Shown in pieces: positions 17,880 to 25,577 of a stretch of 33,691 nt of DNA. A program made the position numbers and the translations under genes. Below the pieces are notes generated by a model. It made no database searches. It had not been told where the DNA came from and worked only from the letters and a program-made list of their open reading frames with translations. Origin of the DNA: Candidatus Fermentibacteraceae bacterium (GTDB taxonomy: Bacteria > Fermentibacterota > Fermentibacteria > Fermentibacterales > JCC-6); NCBI GenBank assembly GCA_030592635.1, contig JAUVIS010000010.1:1-33691 (forward strand), read 5' to 3'. The stretch's first letter is position 1, and each line of letters starts with the position of its first letter.

Positions 17880-18839
17880 CTACTCCTTACGGAATGTATT
17901 CATGATAATCCAGCCCTCGCGCAGGTAGGGTTCCTTCTTGTAGCCCGGATTGTAAACCTCCATGTCGAGAATATACCATTCGCCGCCTGCGTCAAGGACC
18001 CTGGCAGTAAAGGAGCCGGCATTCAGGTATTCCGGATTGCGCCAGACTCCTGTAATTTCCCATCCAGGCAACCCGTTCTGATTAATCGGCGTAGTGATAA
18101 CACGCGCCCTGTCAACAGAATCGGCGGAAGCATCGTAGAAGAAGAGCCGTGCCATAGCCTCCCTGGCCAGAACAGCATTCGAATCGGTAAGCTCAGCTTC
18201 AGTAGTAAGCATCTGTATACTGAAAAGAAGCAGACACTCATCATCAGGATGTCTCTGGTATTGAATGAACCCATCCTCCGGAGTCCAGATCCTTATACTG
18301 AATGACTTCGGCATATTCAGAGTAAAGCCCAGTTCAGAGAGGCTGTCCATTCTTTCCGGCGAAGTCATACTGGTACTGACAAAACTTTCGTAGATGTAGT
18401 CGTGCATCTGATCTTCATATGCCGCCTCCAGCGCTTCGGACAACCCCACGGGAAGTTCCGGCGACTGCGGATCAACCACCACCGCAAATACCTGTTGATC
18501 CAGCGCCCAGACATCCGGACCGCTGTAAATGCCGGTATCGTCTTCTACCAGCCTACCCGGAATCTGATGGATTTCCGAGGGGTCAAGAAGAAGAAGAATT
18601 ACTCTTCGGGCCTTGAGTGTTCCATGAAACTCAGTTGTTTCCGCGAATGAAAAGCTGAAAACTTCTTCAGGATCTATCGTTTCCACAATGAGATTAAGAT
18701 CCTGAAGACCGCCACTGTCTATGAATTCAGTAAGAGAGGCGCTGTAAACAATCAAAACTCCATTGACAGGTCCAAGAGAGTCCTGCCTGCAGGAAACAGC
18801 GGAAAGCAGAAGAAGAGCAGCGAACAGACCTTTTTTCAT
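17880..18839 (-). CDS. Lipoprotein, DUF4837-like
   Basis: MKKGLFAALLLLSAVSC lipobox; overall layout resembles DUF4837. Confidence 0.55.
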   Translation of the reverse strand: MKKGLFAALLLLSAVSCRQDSLGPVNGVLIVYSASLTEFIDSGGLQDLNLIVETIDPEEVFSFSFAETTEFHGTLKARRVILLLLDPSEIHQIPGRLVEDDTGIYSGPDVWALDQQVFAVVVDPQSPELPVGLSEALEAAYEDQMHDYIYESFVSTSMTSPERMDSLSELGFTLNMPKSFSIRIWTPEDGFIQYQRHPDDECLLLFSIQMLTTEAELTDSNAVLAREAMARLFFYDASADSVDRARVITTPINQNGLPGWEITGVWRNPEYLNAGSFTARVLDAGGEWYILDMEVYNPGYKKEPYLREGWIIMNTFRKE

Positions 18840-19207
18840 TACTTCCTGCTCTTTCTTTTATCAAAAAGCGGCTTGACTATTTTCAGCACAGTCAGTACCG
18901 CCGGAAGGTAATTCACAGTATTGCTCACCACGGAAGCACCTGAACCGGCGTTAACCCTCTTTGTAAGAACTCTGACTTCGGAAGCAGTCTGTCCAACCTC
19001 CCGGCCTGTTTTCTCCATTTCAACAAGAGTGCCCGAGAGCACCGGCATCAGTTGTGAAAGATCACTTCGTACCCCGTCAAGTGTTTTCTCAGCACTTTCG
19101 AGAGCTTTCCTGGTTCTTCCAAAAAGAGCGGCCATCATTCCCGCGATAACCCAGAAGCTGACTACCCCCACCAGCAGTACAATCGATGTAGCATCCATAT
19201 AATTCAC
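18839..19207 (-). CDS. Small membrane-anchored coiled-coil protein (DUF948-like)
   Basis: N-terminal TM, then a heptad-rich segment (KALESAEKTLDGVRSDLSQLMPVLSGTLVEMEKTGREVGQTASEVRVLTKRV). Confidence 0.55.
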   Translation of the reverse strand: MNYMDATSIVLLVGVVSFWVIAGMMAALFGRTRKALESAEKTLDGVRSDLSQLMPVLSGTLVEMEKTGREVGQTASEVRVLTKRVNAGSGASVVSNTVNYLPAVLTVLKIVKPLFDKRKSRK

Positions 19208-19222
19208 TCCCCGTAATCGATC

Positions 19223-21196
19223 CTATCTCCTCAAAATGACGATTTCCACCCGCCTGTTCAGTGACCTTCCCTGTTCATCATCATTGGCCGCCGCCGGTCT
19301 TCTCTCTCCGAACCAGATCGGTTCTATCTCAATGTTGTAATCGCTGAGCTGAGCCTCAAGGTACGCAGCCACATTCAGCGCGCGTTCAGTTGAAAGATCA
19401 TCGTTAAAACCGAAGGTACCGTCGCTGTCCGCGTGGCCCTCAACGGAAACAAAAACCCCGGGATTGTTCTTCAATGTTTGAATCACTCTGTCCAGATCGG
19501 GGTATTGATCCTCCCTGATTTCGCCAACAGCATTGTCAAAAAATATTGTTGACATTGATAATCCCTCGCGTTCGCGGGCAACTATCATGAACTGGAAAAG
19601 ATTTACAGGATCAGTTTCGTAGTACAGATAGTTCAGATCCTCATTCATCTGTCTGCAGTTCACATCCAGAGGAATACCGCCTCTTACTCTCGTGAGTCCG
19701 AGAGTGGCTGGATTAATCCTGTTTCTGTCCATCCATACTTTGCTGACCCTGAAGCTCAGGCTGGCTTCAATAATATCTACACTGTCCACTGCTCCGTACA
19801 CCGTTTGCGGCTCAACCATGACCAGTTCAGCATGCCTTGCGGAAATAAGGAAATCGCCGATGTGATCCAGTGACGCTTCGAAATAGTAGTATCCCTCATC
19901 CTCGTCAATAATTGCCGCAGGCATTCTCACCAGAGAATTGTCTTCCTCAACTCTGTAAAGTCGAAGCAGCCTCAGCTCAAGGTTATTCTGTTCAAGCCAG
20001 TACCTCGGCACCCTGAATCCCACGGAAAGATCTCTGATGTCTTCCCCGGTGAAAGTGGCTCTGGACGGGAAGTAAGCATAAAGAACCTGCTTGTCATCAA
20101 GTTTAAGCGTACTGTTCAGTGGTATCTGGTCGTACTGTGCAATAATCAGTGAGTCATTCTGAACATCTCTGTTGGCCCAGAGACAAACCTCGTACATATC
20201 TGTTCCGGTTTCCCAGGTTCTTCGATCCACCAGAGGAGGAAGAGGAACCCTGGGTTCATCTTCCAGCCATTCAGTACCACCCAGTCTGAATGTAAGCCCT
20301 CCTCTGTGCCTGCCCCATGTTGATTGAAGATCGTTCATTGGAAGGGCAAAAGCATAGTCAAAAGAAACAGGAAGCGCACCCTCATACCTTGCGGACAATC
20401 CCGCCGAGAGTTCTGAAGTTTTTCCAAGGGTTCTGGCTCTGTAACCTGCCCTGAAACCCCATGTGGAAGCAACTCCAAACCACTTCTCCAGTCCTAATGC
20501 AAAGTCAATGTCTTTTTCTCCGTCAATATCATCCAGAGACCAGTCAACCTGAATAACGGGTGTGATGAATCTCGGATAGAACGCGGCTCCAAAGGAAATT
20601 TCTATTGGAAGAACATCCTCTTCCCCGATACCCATGTCGGGCGAAATGAGATTCCTGGCCACTCCTGCCAGAGTTACCCTTCTGCCAAGCTCCGCCTGAA
20701 AACCGAAATCCGCAGAAACAGCTTTTGCCCGAAGACCGTTGGCGGCGAAGAGCGGATCGTATGAAGTAAACTCGTTGTCCACATAGTCTCTGTACATGTA
20801 GCGTCCGGTGAAACCGAAAGAAACAGGGAATATTCCGGGCCTGAATGCCAGGGCTAGAAGCCCCTCCCCCTGAGTGCACTGGTCTGACGCGTTGAGGATA
20901 TCAGCGCCCAGACCGAAAGCGGAGAATCGGGTGACAGGTTGCACATACCCTAAAGCACCGTAGTTTATGGAATTCAGATCCATGTTCGGATAGAAACTGG
21001 TGTACTCGGTTCCCACCATCAGCCTGCCGGAGCGAAGAAGGCCGGCAGGATTCCACCAGGAAGCCCAGGCATCATCAGCAATGGCAATAAAAGCTCCGGC
21101 CATTCCCATGGCACGAGCGCCGGGATTGAGAACATCCGCGTAAACTGTTGATGTTAAGGCAAAAACCAGCGCGAAGATTATTATCTTGCTACACAT
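19223..21196 (-). CDS. PorV/UPF0164-like beta-barrel fused to two PGF-pre-PGF-like domains and a C-terminal OmpA domain
   Basis: LNPGARAMGMAGAFIAIADDAWASWWNPAGL; FRVPRYWLEQNN... and FRVSKVWMDRNR... units; IFFDNAVGEI...VEGHADSDGTFGFNDDLSTERALNVAAYL...GRSLNRRVEI. Confidence 0.8.
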   Translation of the reverse strand: MCSKIIIFALVFALTSTVYADVLNPGARAMGMAGAFIAIADDAWASWWNPAGLLRSGRLMVGTEYTSFYPNMDLNSINYGALGYVQPVTRFSAFGLGADILNASDQCTQGEGLLALAFRPGIFPVSFGFTGRYMYRDYVDNEFTSYDPLFAANGLRAKAVSADFGFQAELGRRVTLAGVARNLISPDMGIGEEDVLPIEISFGAAFYPRFITPVIQVDWSLDDIDGEKDIDFALGLEKWFGVASTWGFRAGYRARTLGKTSELSAGLSARYEGALPVSFDYAFALPMNDLQSTWGRHRGGLTFRLGGTEWLEDEPRVPLPPLVDRRTWETGTDMYEVCLWANRDVQNDSLIIAQYDQIPLNSTLKLDDKQVLYAYFPSRATFTGEDIRDLSVGFRVPRYWLEQNNLELRLLRLYRVEEDNSLVRMPAAIIDEDEGYYYFEASLDHIGDFLISARHAELVMVEPQTVYGAVDSVDIIEASLSFRVSKVWMDRNRINPATLGLTRVRGGIPLDVNCRQMNEDLNYLYYETDPVNLFQFMIVAREREGLSMSTIFFDNAVGEIREDQYPDLDRVIQTLKNNPGVFVSVEGHADSDGTFGFNDDLSTERALNVAAYLEAQLSDYNIEIEPIWFGERRPAAANDDEQGRSLNRRVEIVILRR

Positions 21197-24100
21197 ACTG
21201 TTCCCGTCACCTCCCCCGCAGAAGCTGAAGCATGGAAAATATAAACTCCTGACGGTACTGAATTCCCTGCATTGTCACGCCCGTCCCATACAGGTTCTGT
21301 ACCGGTGATGTTCCTCACAGGTACTCCCTCAATGTTCAGTATGACAAGAGTAATTGCTGCGTCCTCCGCCGCGGGCCAGACAAACGAAGCTGCATCATTT
21401 ATACCGTCGCCGTTCGGGGTGAAAGGAGTGGGTATTACAGTCATCCCAGGTGAAAAACTCCTCAGCAGGGAAATGTCGAATTCGGTATAGAGATCTTCCT
21501 CAACCATCGCGGTATCGGAAAACACAGCGTATGGATCCTGATCAACATAAACAGGCACATTTCCCACAGGCACCTCTTCGAAGTAGTAGTAACCAGTGTT
21601 GTCGGTAACAGATGTTATTCCCAGTCCCAGAATGGATACAACAATGTCCTCGAGATCCCGGCCTGTATAAACATCTGTTACAATACCTCCCAGAGATCCG
21701 CTGGGACCCTGCGCGGTGGCGGAAGCCATGTTACTGTACTGGCTCTCCCCGTCAGGATCCGAATAGACGCAGGTAGCCCAGTAGTAGTAACCGATTCCGT
21801 TCACAACCTGTGAATCTGCCCATGAGACCGTGTCCGTGCTGAATTCAGCAATAGGATCAGGTTCCGGAGAAAGTGGACTGATGGATCTGTAAATCCTGTA
21901 TGAAGTCAGCCCTTTACCGTCGGCGGAAGCCTCAGGAGGATCCCAGCTCAGCGGAATGAAACCGTCATTACCGCTGACAGCCGCCAGGTTCCGAGGCGGA
22001 GCAAGTTCGCCGATAACAGCAAATGGTCCGTAAGTGGAAGTATTGTTCGTTTCATCATGTTCAATAACAAGTGAGTCGGGATCTACCACGGATACCTGAT
22101 ACCTGTTGCCTATATCGAAATATGTGAATCTGTAGCCTCCCTTGAAAGAGGCTGTTTCCCCGCTTTCCAGTGGAGGCACATCAAGAAGCAGAACTGGCTG
22201 ATCCAGCGAGTCCGGATCATCTGTAATGTAGTAGGCAAGCTGAGTTGCAGACGATGGACCTTCACCGTCATTGCTGACAATAACGCTGAAACCAACAGTC
22301 TGTCCCACTTCGAAAGGAGGAGAGGCATCAGGAGATGCAATAGATACGGTCAGATCCGGATAAGCCAGAACAATGGTGAACTGACCGGAAGCATCGTCAA
22401 GCCCTCTGTTGCCCGCACCGGTAACCACATCAACGATGTGGGTTCCCGGCTGATCCGGACACTGCAGAGTGAATTCCGTCGATGCGCTGGAGTTCTTGTA
22501 TACCAGATTTCCCATAAATGCCGGTATGTTGACATCGCCGCTGAAAACACCGGGAGGATTAAGTGTGGCCCACGCTCCCACGGCAATGTATCCTCCTGTG
22601 TTGGCTATAGAAACTGGAATTATCAATTCGCCTCCGGGGGGCGCGTATATAGTGGTGTCCACGGGGAATGTTACCGCAAGCACCGGATCCCTGGCGAAGC
22701 GGTAGGCGGAGATGGCAAACTGCTGCTGCTCCAGCGGATCTCCGGGATCCGCCCACGATACACCGGTAACTTTCACATTCCAGGCGCCCGGCTCAGGAGA
22801 TTCCACGGCAATCCTTTCAACAGGACTCTGGGATGTTACACCGGCAGGAAGCGTATAGTTATACTCCACATTGGAGGGCGAAATCAGAGTTACATCAAGA
22901 TCCACCTGTATCCCCGGAGACACGGAAGGAACATCCGAATATCCCAGGCCTACGGACATCCAGCTGGTGTAAGCGGGAACATACATCATCCATTGTTTCG
23001 ATCCCGTTCCCTCCACAATTACGGAATTTATCCACAGCAGCCGCTCAACTTCTTCAGAGAAGTAAGTACCGGGAAGGTGATATCCGTCCAGAAGACCGAA
23101 ACCGCTTGCGGATGTCGCGTAGCCGGATTCGGGAGGCCCGGTGTTGCTCTTAAGGGGAATTGCGCAGGCTGTCATAATGGCCACCGCGTCTTCCGAACTG
23201 AAAAGATCCCCGTACTTCTCTTCACATATTGCCAGTGCCGCGGAAACAAAAGCAGCTGCCATGCTGGTGCCGGTAAAACGGGTATAGGAAGGTTCGCCCG
23301 GCCACCGGTTCACAGGATCATCAAGCCACTGGCCTCCATACTGCGCATTTGTTGTCGCAACTCCGTTCTGCATGGTAGACTGCAGAAACTCTCCTCCGGG
23401 AGCAAGTATCTCGGGTTTAAGCCGTCCATCAACAGTGGGACCTCTCCCGCTGTATGAGGCCAGAAGAAGATTCCCGTCATCGTCAGGCAGGAAGGTAACC
23501 GCCCCAACGGTAATCGCGTTCCTTGCAATCGCCGGGGAAGGAACAGCGCCGGGCGCGGGGTTGTTGCCGGAACTGAAAATTGAAAGTTTGCCGTTCCTTG
23601 ACCAGGTATCCACGACCTGGCAGAATCCATCGTATGAAGTTGATCCGTCAAAACCCCAGGAGTTATTCACAATATAACAGTCGTTTGAAAAGAATTCAGT
23701 GTAAAACCCGGCAAACTGAGCAGGCGTCATCGACTCAGGCCTCTGAATCACATAGAGCTGAGCATCCGGCGCGCCTCCGCGTCCATTGAATTCGCAATCG
23801 AGATCAACTTCTCCTCTTGAAGCAATAACACCGCAGACAGCGGTGCCATGGCCGGTGGGATCCGGATCTCCTGCCACCACCGCGCCTTCAAGATCCGGAT
23901 GTTCGGACCAGACTCCTGTGTCAAGAACGCCAACCCGTATACCCAGACCTGTGTAGTAGGTCCACAGATCCGGCAGACCGGTCACCTGACGACTGTCATC
24001 AGCCTGGTCGTTGAGAGCGTGGGCACGGGCAGTTTGCGGCCTGTCCGGAACAGCTGAAAGAACACCTGACTCCACCGGACCCGGAACCAGCCACCACTGT

Positions 24101-24603
24101 TCTGAAAAAGCAGTGCCTGTCGGAGGGATAAAGCCGGGAGCCATTCTGACAAGCCATCCGCCGGACCAGTAGCGATCCTCAAGTTGAACAGCATCCTGCC
24201 ATGACCACCGGGTAATGCTTCCGGCGAATCCCGAACCCCTGAGAGCATCCGGATCCGGATTCTCTCCGACTACAGCGACAAAACTGCTGCCGGTCGGAGC
24301 ATAGCCGGTTGGCCACAGCCCTGCCTGATCAAGAACGGCAAGATCGCGGGGAGTTAGATGTCTGTAAACTTGAATCAGCACAAGATCTCCCGTGGAACCG
24401 GGAATAAAATCAGTCATAAGCGGCCCTGATCCGTTACCTGCAGAGATATAGTAAGTGTCTGACTGCAGAAGCACACTCTGCCTGTCTTCATGATCCAGCA
24501 GGGTCAAATCCTCAAGGGCAGGCAGATCAACCGATTCAACAACAGGATAATCCGCGGTTGAAAAGAACGCCAGCAACAAAAGAGAAAACACAGTCATAGC
24601 CAC
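21181..24603 (-). CDS. Secreted S8 subtilisin-like serine protease with P-domain-like, CARDB-like, FN3, regulatory-like and T9SS/FlgD-type C-terminal domains
   Basis: Triad motifs VLDTGVWSEHPDL, GHGTAVCG, FTGTSMAAAFVSA; C-terminus PTPFTPNGDGINDAASF...WDGRDNAGNSVPSGVYIF. Confidence 0.92.
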   Translation of the reverse strand: MAMTVFSLLLLAFFSTADYPVVESVDLPALEDLTLLDHEDRQSVLLQSDTYYISAGNGSGPLMTDFIPGSTGDLVLIQVYRHLTPRDLAVLDQAGLWPTGYAPTGSSFVAVVGENPDPDALRGSGFAGSITRWSWQDAVQLEDRYWSGGWLVRMAPGFIPPTGTAFSEQWWLVPGPVESGVLSAVPDRPQTARAHALNDQADDSRQVTGLPDLWTYYTGLGIRVGVLDTGVWSEHPDLEGAVVAGDPDPTGHGTAVCGVIASRGEVDLDCEFNGRGGAPDAQLYVIQRPESMTPAQFAGFYTEFFSNDCYIVNNSWGFDGSTSYDGFCQVVDTWSRNGKLSIFSSGNNPAPGAVPSPAIARNAITVGAVTFLPDDDGNLLLASYSGRGPTVDGRLKPEILAPGGEFLQSTMQNGVATTNAQYGGQWLDDPVNRWPGEPSYTRFTGTSMAAAFVSAALAICEEKYGDLFSSEDAVAIMTACAIPLKSNTGPPESGYATSASGFGLLDGYHLPGTYFSEEVERLLWINSVIVEGTGSKQWMMYVPAYTSWMSVGLGYSDVPSVSPGIQVDLDVTLISPSNVEYNYTLPAGVTSQSPVERIAVESPEPGAWNVKVTGVSWADPGDPLEQQQFAISAYRFARDPVLAVTFPVDTTIYAPPGGELIIPVSIANTGGYIAVGAWATLNPPGVFSGDVNIPAFMGNLVYKNSSASTEFTLQCPDQPGTHIVDVVTGAGNRGLDDASGQFTIVLAYPDLTVSIASPDASPPFEVGQTVGFSVIVSNDGEGPSSATQLAYYITDDPDSLDQPVLLLDVPPLESGETASFKGGYRFTYFDIGNRYQVSVVDPDSLVIEHDETNNTSTYGPFAVIGELAPPRNLAAVSGNDGFIPLSWDPPEASADGKGLTSYRIYRSISPLSPEPDPIAEFSTDTVSWADSQVVNGIGYYYWATCVYSDPDGESQYSNMASATAQGPSGSLGGIVTDVYTGRDLEDIVVSILGLGITSVTDNTGYYYFEEVPVGNVPVYVDQDPYAVFSDTAMVEEDLYTEFDISLLRSFSPGMTVIPTPFTPNGDGINDAASFVWPAAEDAAITLVILNIEGVPVRNITGTEPVWDGRDNAGNSVPSGVYIFHASASAGEVTGTVCVAR

Positions 24604-24731: not shown

Positions 24732-25577
24732 TTACTCTGCCGACGATTTCGCTCTGGCTTTGAATGTATTTTCAAGAAGAAAAGCAATTGTGAGTGGTCC
24801 CACACCTCCGGGAACCGGAGTTATCGCGGAGCAGACATCAAAGACATCGTTGTAGGCGACATCTCCAACCAGTTTTCCGTTACTGTTTCTGTTCATTCCA
24901 ACATCCACAACAACTGCTCCCGGTTTAACCCAGTCCCTTTGAATCATTTCCGGTTTACCCACAGCGACAATGAGAATGTCGGCCTTTCTGCACTGTCCCA
25001 TGAGATCCACAGTACGGCTGTGCGCGACTGTCACTGTACAGTTCTCCCTGAGCAGAAGCGCTGCCATGGGTTTCCCAACAATGTTGGATCTTCCCACAAC
25101 AAGAGCATTCTTACCGCGCATGGAGATGTCATGATGGTGAAGAAGTCCAACAATGCCTGAGGGGGTACACGGGAAAAGACCTTCTTCACCTCTCCACAGT
25201 CTTCCCACATTCACAGGGTGAAAGCCGTCCACATCCTTTTCAGGCAGCACTGCTGAAGCTACCCGGTCAACAGAGATGTGATCAGGAAGAGGAAGCTGAA
25301 CCAGAATGCCGTGGACAGTATCATCGCAGTTCAACTCACCGACAAGCCCCAGAATATCCGCTTCCGATGTTTCAGCGGGCAGGCCGATTACACGGCTGTT
25401 AAAGCCCACCTTTTTACAGGCCTTTTCTTTAGCGCCAACATAAACCCTGCTGGCCGGATCATCGCCGACCATTATCACTGCAAGCCCCGGAGCTGATCCC
25501 TGAAGCTCACTGACCCGATCTCTCAGGGAAGCTCTGACAACCCTGGCGTATTTCCTGCCGGAAAGGACAAGAGCCAT
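24732..25577 (-). CDS. folD: Bifunctional methylenetetrahydrofolate dehydrogenase/cyclohydrolase
   Basis: VGDDPASRVYVGAKEKACKKVG, HGILVQLPLP, VVGRSNIVGKPMA, ITPVPGGVGPLTIAFLLENT. Confidence 0.97.
   Translation of the reverse strand: MALVLSGRKYARVVRASLRDRVSELQGSAPGLAVIMVGDDPASRVYVGAKEKACKKVGFNSRVIGLPAETSEADILGLVGELNCDDTVHGILVQLPLPDHISVDRVASAVLPEKDVDGFHPVNVGRLWRGEEGLFPCTPSGIVGLLHHHDISMRGKNALVVGRSNIVGKPMAALLLRENCTVTVAHSRTVDLMGQCRKADILIVAVGKPEMIQRDWVKPGAVVVDVGMNRNSNGKLVGDVAYNDVFDVCSAITPVPGGVGPLTIAFLLENTFKARAKSSAE

Follow-up and report, generated by a model that had tools for sequence, protein, structure and literature searches.

A PorV-family barrel joined to tandem PGF-pre-PGF-like units and an OmpA domain in Fermentibacterota: candidate carrier and anchor of a co-inherited S8 protease

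Which task is served by a protein chain in which an outer-membrane barrel, two units resembling a domain known from archaeal surface proteins, PGF-pre-PGF, and a peptidoglycan-binding domain follow one another, and whose gene overlaps that of a protease? This question is raised by a reading frame in a 33,691-nucleotide stretch of DNA from Candidatus Fermentibacteraceae bacterium (contig JAUVIS010000010.1), the whole of which is called the window here. The frame and its parts are the following.

19223..21196, minus strand: open reading frame of 657 aa, PorV-like barrel plus two PGF-pre-PGF-like units plus OmpA (open frame, Pfam, NCBIfam, ortholog alignment)
21137..21196, minus strand: signal peptide, aa 1-20, without lipobox, cleavage between ...VYA and DVL (sequence inspection)
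21026..21136, minus strand: PorV/FadL-type plug motif, aa 21-57 (PGARAMGMAGAFIAIADDAWASWWNPAGL; NF033709 aa 23-104, Pfam PorV aa 15-95)
20276..21025, minus strand: predicted outer-membrane beta-barrel, 14 strands, aa 58-307 (AlphaFold2, Foldseek)
20084..20275, minus strand: predicted periplasmic linker between barrel and unit 1, aa 308-371 (PLPPLVDRRTW...)
19832..20083, minus strand: PGF-pre-PGF-like unit 1, aa 372-455 (TIGR04213, 40.6 bits; AlphaFold2 model)
19568..19828, minus strand: PGF-pre-PGF-like unit 2, aa 457-543 (TIGR04213, 32.4 bits)
19226..19546, minus strand: OmpA peptidoglycan-binding domain, aa 551-657 (PF00691, phmmer)

That a signal peptide, a barrel, two PGF-pre-PGF-like units and an OmpA domain are combined in this chain is near certain. 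The layout is kept whole in 15 full-length orthologs including that of the window, to which the other 14 are 59-94% identical; conservation is lowest in the signal peptide (20% identity to distant orthologs). An earlier note on this DNA had described a PorV-like barrel, two PGF-pre-PGF-like domains and an OmpA domain in one chain, and all three domain calls hold in HMM searches and AlphaFold2 modelling. Neither of the outcomes that would have spoken against it, a middle region unrelated to PGF-pre-PGF or an N-terminus other than a barrel, was obtained. The two sequences it quoted are present exactly as given (FRVPRYW...FLIS, aa 394-452, 19841-20017; FRVSKVW...FMIV, aa 482-539, 19580-19753), with unit coordinates off by at most about 30 bases.

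The genes that surround the fusion gene turned out to be informative about its role.

24732..25577, minus strand: folD, left border of the cassette site (Pfam, locus comparison)
21181..24603, minus strand: S8 subtilase-CARDB-CarboxypepD_reg-like protein, 1140 aa, with C-terminal sorting domain of CHU_C/T9SS (type IX secretion) type (Pfam)
21223..21435, minus strand: T9SS type-B-like sorting domain of the S8 protease, aa 1057-1127 (PTPFTPNGDGIND...; CHU_C PF13585)
18839..19207, minus strand: DUF948-like small membrane protein, fixed neighbour, kept where the cassette is absent (Pfam)
17880..18839, minus strand: DUF4837 protein, a constant neighbour (39 of the 42 genomes; Pfam)

The S8 gene lies upstream of the barrel gene and its stop codon falls within the start of the latter, so that the two genes share 16 nt. 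In all orthologous loci with DNA on both sides this overlap is kept, and the genes follow one another as RNaseE/G, small ORF, folD, S8 gene, barrel gene, DUF948, DUF4837, TPR. The S8 protein matches Peptidase_S8 (138.6 bits), CARDB (43.8) and CHU_C (32.4) in Pfam, and its catalytic motifs DTG/HGT/GTSMA are intact. Its sorting domain exceeds the cut-off of CHU_C PF13585 (27) and lies below that of TIGR04131 (31.6 bits, cut-off 35); it matches FlgD_ig as well, and may be of type A or of type B. The idea that every CHU_C-like protein of the phylum has a barrel partner was rejected because proteins of about 1207 aa (L088, L089) are without a barrel neighbour. The latter are conserved secreted proteins with a weaker type-B-like C-terminus (L088:3154-6774, L089:6585-10208, L090, L091), and a transposase-like ORF is found near the gene in L091 (G028).

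A GTDB scan with the middle region of the orthologs, which distant PGF-like outer-membrane proteins of other bacterial phyla may escape, located fusion orthologs in named loci of Ca. Sabulitectum, Ca. Aegiribacteria and further members of Fermentibacterota (Hyd24-12); the host of the window is assigned to Ca. Sabulitectum. Of 42 Fermentibacterota genomes 19 encode the fusion, and 14 of the 24 good ones lack it. All 19 carriers also have the S8 gene, and both genes are missing in 22; the only S8 gene without a fusion, which brings the number of S8-bearing genomes to 20, is cut by a contig end in a genome that is 68% complete (G032). At the empty sites of 12 genomes folD and the DUF948 gene are immediate neighbours, with about 110-315 bp between match ends. 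A thirteenth empty site (L080 in G003) contains an insert of 1.5 kb between these two genes. It was considered as a decayed cassette and rejected, since its short ORFs are PIN-like and AbrB-like and match neither cassette gene; by inspection, this segment (L080:3405-4923) resembles a toxin-antitoxin pair. In the L064 locus of Ca. Sabulitectum silens (G021) both cassette orthologs and several neighbours contain frame breaks, which, affecting several adjacent genes, are probably sequencing errors.

In a tree built from RNaseE/G, FolD and DUF4837, at least six branches show a switch in the state of the cassette, an approximate number as several rows of this quickly searched tree are partial. The S8 gene always switches in the same direction as the fusion and never in the opposite one (sign test, p 0.03). 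Thus, the S8 and barrel genes are a two-gene cassette at one chromosomal site that is gained and lost as a unit. A barrel that is always inherited with a secreted protease is probably a dedicated carrier holding this enzyme on the surface of these little-studied bacteria, and we regard it as fairly likely that the fusion is dedicated to the S8 protease encoded next to it upstream, as its T9SS carrier and its anchor on the surface.

As modelled, the barrel is a divergent 14-strand member of the PorV/PorQ family. It matches NF033709 (PorV/PorQ family, NCBIfam) with 72.9 bits (E 3e-20), under the cut-off of 90, as do the orthologs (42-51 bits), and Pfam PorV PF19572 with 23 bits (E 6e-5), under the cut-off of 27. 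Hence, of the PorV assignment in the earlier note the kinship stands, whereas identity with PorV itself does not. AlphaFold2, run with the 15 orthologs, folded the N-terminal part into a FadL-type barrel of 14 strands (aa 58-304) behind the N-terminal plug motif, with moderate confidence (pLDDT mostly 60-70); the whole-chain model is of low confidence (pLDDT 50) and places the periplasmic domains poorly. The plug motif is rich in invariant residues in the alignment of the 15 orthologs, and the barrel is 56% identical to that of distant orthologs. OmpG, T9SS PorV (8gl6_F and 6h3i_F), FadL/TodX and CymD are among the PDB structures matched by the barrel model in Foldseek; a barrel profile found no match among PDB sequences. 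Fourteen strands would leave both barrel ends in the periplasm, which places the PGF-like units and the OmpA domain there together. The linker in between is 62% conserved to distant orthologs, has low pLDDT and matches no family in Pfam or NCBIfam. Stand-alone PorV proteins separate from the fusion exist across the phylum, and the genome of the window itself encodes other PorV-family barrels lacking the extension, one of them scoring 233.9 bits with NF033709. The fusion is therefore an additional barrel and not the general PorV.

The Foldseek matches to FadL, TodX and CymD, together with a plug motif that is common to the wider FadL superfamily, would also suit an uptake channel for hydrophobic compounds which is tied to the wall by its OmpA domain and has the protease merely as operon partner. 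We consider such a channel unlikely, however, because the sequence families favour PorV/PorQ, the Toluene_X/FadL family gave no match in Pfam and NCBIfam searches of the protein, and six joint gains or losses with a protease are unexpected for a general transporter. The earlier note had left the choice between "channel or shuttle"; a co-inherited, overlapping gene for an S8 protease with T9SS sorting domain argues for a dedicated T9SS carrier and anchor and against a solute channel.

The middle region matches TIGR04213 (PGF_pre_PGF, NCBIfam) with 68.3 bits in two stretches (E 7e-19, cut-off 28), and the orthologs reach 55-67 bits. Taken singly, both units still exceed the cut-off, and they are the sole two matches in the whole genome. 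Across the phylum TIGR04213 matches occur in 19 of 42 genomes, always exactly two and always inside the fusion protein, and a profile built from the units themselves found no further copy in these 42 genomes. The PGF-pre-PGF assignment of the earlier note is thus borne out by scores over the cut-off but applies to part of the domain: the units cover positions 84-152 of the 153-position model, the best extension in an ortholog reaches position 54, and the archaeal signature TPGFS.FAI is absent. Likewise, the chain ends in the OmpA domain without a C-terminal hydrophobic segment and so does not place its units ahead of a PGF-CTERM, while the archaeal PGF-pre-PGF proteins found have a hydrophobic C-terminal tail, several of them with PGF.

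Shuffle tests exclude chance as the source of these similarities. The Smith-Waterman score of unit 1 against unit 2 is 83 (2000 shuffles: mean 25, maximum 55), and those of the units against an archaeal PGF-pre-PGF domain are 115 and 107 (shuffle maxima 47 and 46). In hhalign, ortholog profiles aligned whole units to the C-terminal half of five archaeal domains with a probability of 96%. Modelled alone from an alignment of both units of all orthologs, unit 1 folds with pLDDT 90.1 and pTM 0.79 into seven strands and one short helix. We claim no fold family for it, as Foldseek found no significant match in the PDB (best E 0.095). When the middle region was compared with 72,556 plasmids by tblastn, the only match was archaeal and annotated as PGF-pre-PGF, and a Methanohalobium PGF-pre-PGF domain matched exclusively archaeal entries in the same set; neither the protein nor the archaeal domain had a match in IMG/VR, and searches of phage records gave none either.

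The C-terminal domain matches PF00691 with 48.2 bits (E 1.4e-12, cut-off 27.2) as well as many OmpA-domain models in NCBIfam, and phmmer aligns it over its length to peptidoglycan-binding structures of OprF, Pal and OmpA. The alignment includes both peptidoglycan-site residues, the Asp in GH(A/T)D and the Arg in LSxxRA; Asp590 is present in 14 and Arg605 in all of the 15 orthologs. Judged by its sequence, the domain appears intact and has conserved peptidoglycan-site residues. For the linker tethered to peptidoglycan that the earlier note had envisaged, the PGF-like and OmpA domains have thus been identified, and tethering is their presumed role.

An intact OmpA domain would equally be expected of a structural tether between outer membrane and peptidoglycan in the manner of OmpA/OprF, with the PGF-like units as interchangeable linkers like the CarboxypepD_reg pairs of the phylum. 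Indeed, the plan of barrel, two beta-sandwich domains and OmpA recurs in L002 and L025. Such a purely structural role is improbable because the fusion, being absent from more than half of the good genomes, is not needed for envelope stability and is tied to the protease, and because unit 2, which is 73% identical to that of distant orthologs, is better conserved than the barrel and than any other part of the protein, unlike a passive spacer. The L002 and L025 proteins (L002:1486-3339, L025:1-1890) belong to OmpA proteins of the phylum in which a different N-terminal part precedes two CarboxypepD_reg domains and OmpA, and of which a genome encodes several copies. Least likely of all is a processing partner that regulates or matures the S8 protease by cleavage or release of its C-terminal domain instead of holding it on the surface, since the obligate pairing and the strong conservation of unit 2 are countered by the lack of any catalytic domain in the chain (Pfam, NCBIfam) and by PorU-like sortases elsewhere in the genome.

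A T9SS carrier and anchor presupposes a translocon. The SprA family TIGR04189 is found over cut-off in 40 of 42 genomes, that of the window included; an example is a SprA-family translocon of about 1876 aa (G000:C167:1144-6774, L092). PorU-like sortases occur in 42 of 42 genomes and exceed the cut-off in ten, and in some relatives a PorV gene lies directly beside a PorU-like gene, e.g. in G030:C118 and G023:C107. The PorP/SprF family TIGR03519 has no match above cut-off in the 42 phylum genomes, none in the genome of the window and none to the fusion protein among the families listed. A partial PorP-family match at G023:C31:5399-5966 directly follows a 1885-aa ORF with a type-B-like sorting domain; the two could form a canonical type B cargo/PorP pair, or the match could stem from contamination. 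The search for GldM yielded no match, and neither did its controls; a complete energised T9SS in the phylum is putative. Work on T9SS rests almost wholly on Bacteroidota. A survey of 2016 found the system in no other clade (PMC4793230). The SprA-family translocon is nearly universal in Fermentibacterota, even though T9SS is restricted to Bacteroidota in the surveys cited.

We propose that the dedicated carrier and anchor works as follows. Both proteins, as their signal peptides suggest, would cross the inner membrane via Sec, and the PorV-family barrel would insert in the outer membrane such that its 14 modelled strands have both ends in the periplasm. The protease would be exported by the SprA-like translocon, and the fusion barrel, in place of the general PorV, may take over the C-terminal CHU_C domain of the enzyme. 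As in the analogous pairs SprF-SprB and PorP-PG1035, the protease would then stay bound to the barrel on the surface. The two periplasmic PGF-pre-PGF-like units could serve as a pair of spacers, while the clamp that holds the assembly to peptidoglycan would be the OmpA domain, the outcome being an immobile surface protease riveted to the wall. Type B carriers of Bacteroidota are PorP-like, not PorV-like. In that phylum type A cargo uses PorV, while every type B protein remains attached to a carrier of its own (PMC12635249). PorP of P. gingivalis binds the type B protein PG1035 and is itself likely connected to peptidoglycan by PorE; the authors of that work proposed a wall anchorage of immobile type B proteins through PorP-PorE (PMC9143113). 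In Fermentibacterota the gene of the presumed carrier lies beside that of its presumed cargo and is inherited with it, and by analogy the pair fits the type B scheme, with a single chain that would be both carrier and wall anchor.

It is tempting to go further and to postulate that T9SS exists outside Bacteroidota and has a self-contained class of carriers there, i.e. PorV-family barrels with their own peptidoglycan anchor via tandem half PGF-pre-PGF domains, in cargo-plus-anchor cassettes that are gained and lost; this wider proposal is tentative, and we would not yet call it probable. If true, the PGF-type fold would be a general envelope module of archaeal surface proteins and bacterial periplasmic tethers. 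With SprA-like, PorU-like and PorV-family proteins across Fermentibacterota, a candidate cargo gene that overlaps, and is inherited with, the gene of a putative single-chain carrier and wall anchor offers a compact test case for the surface retention of T9SS cargo, and the PGF-pre-PGF fold now appears in a bacterial, predicted periplasmic setting with a confident half-domain model.

How does the fusion compare with known proteins? With archaeal PGF-pre-PGF (TIGR04213) it shares the core FRVxKxWxxxNN...EDEGYYYFE, over the curated cut-off, and with the Methanohalobium domain 31-34% identity; unlike these, its units are bacterial, tandem, predicted to be periplasmic and confined to the C-terminal half, with neither a PGF-CTERM behind them nor the TPGFS motif. 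It resembles the L002 and L025 proteins in its barrel-like N-terminus, two beta-sandwich linkers and OmpA but differs in the N-terminal part, in the type of linker and in its tie to an S8 gene. Plug motif, 14-strand barrel and size of the barrel part are those of the PorV/PorQ family (NF033709, PF19572), from which it is set apart by a 350-residue extension, probably periplasmic, and by scores under the curated cut-offs. The closest functional parallel would be SprF-SprB and PorP-PorE-PG1035 (PMC9143113, PMC12635249), where a CHU_C-type cargo has its own 14-strand barrel of the FadL superfamily and, in the latter case, PorE supplies the OmpA peptidoglycan-binding domain. By contrast, the Fermentibacterota protein unites a PorV/PorQ-family barrel, PGF-pre-PGF-like spacers and OmpA in the same chain, and its presumed cargo is a subtilase.
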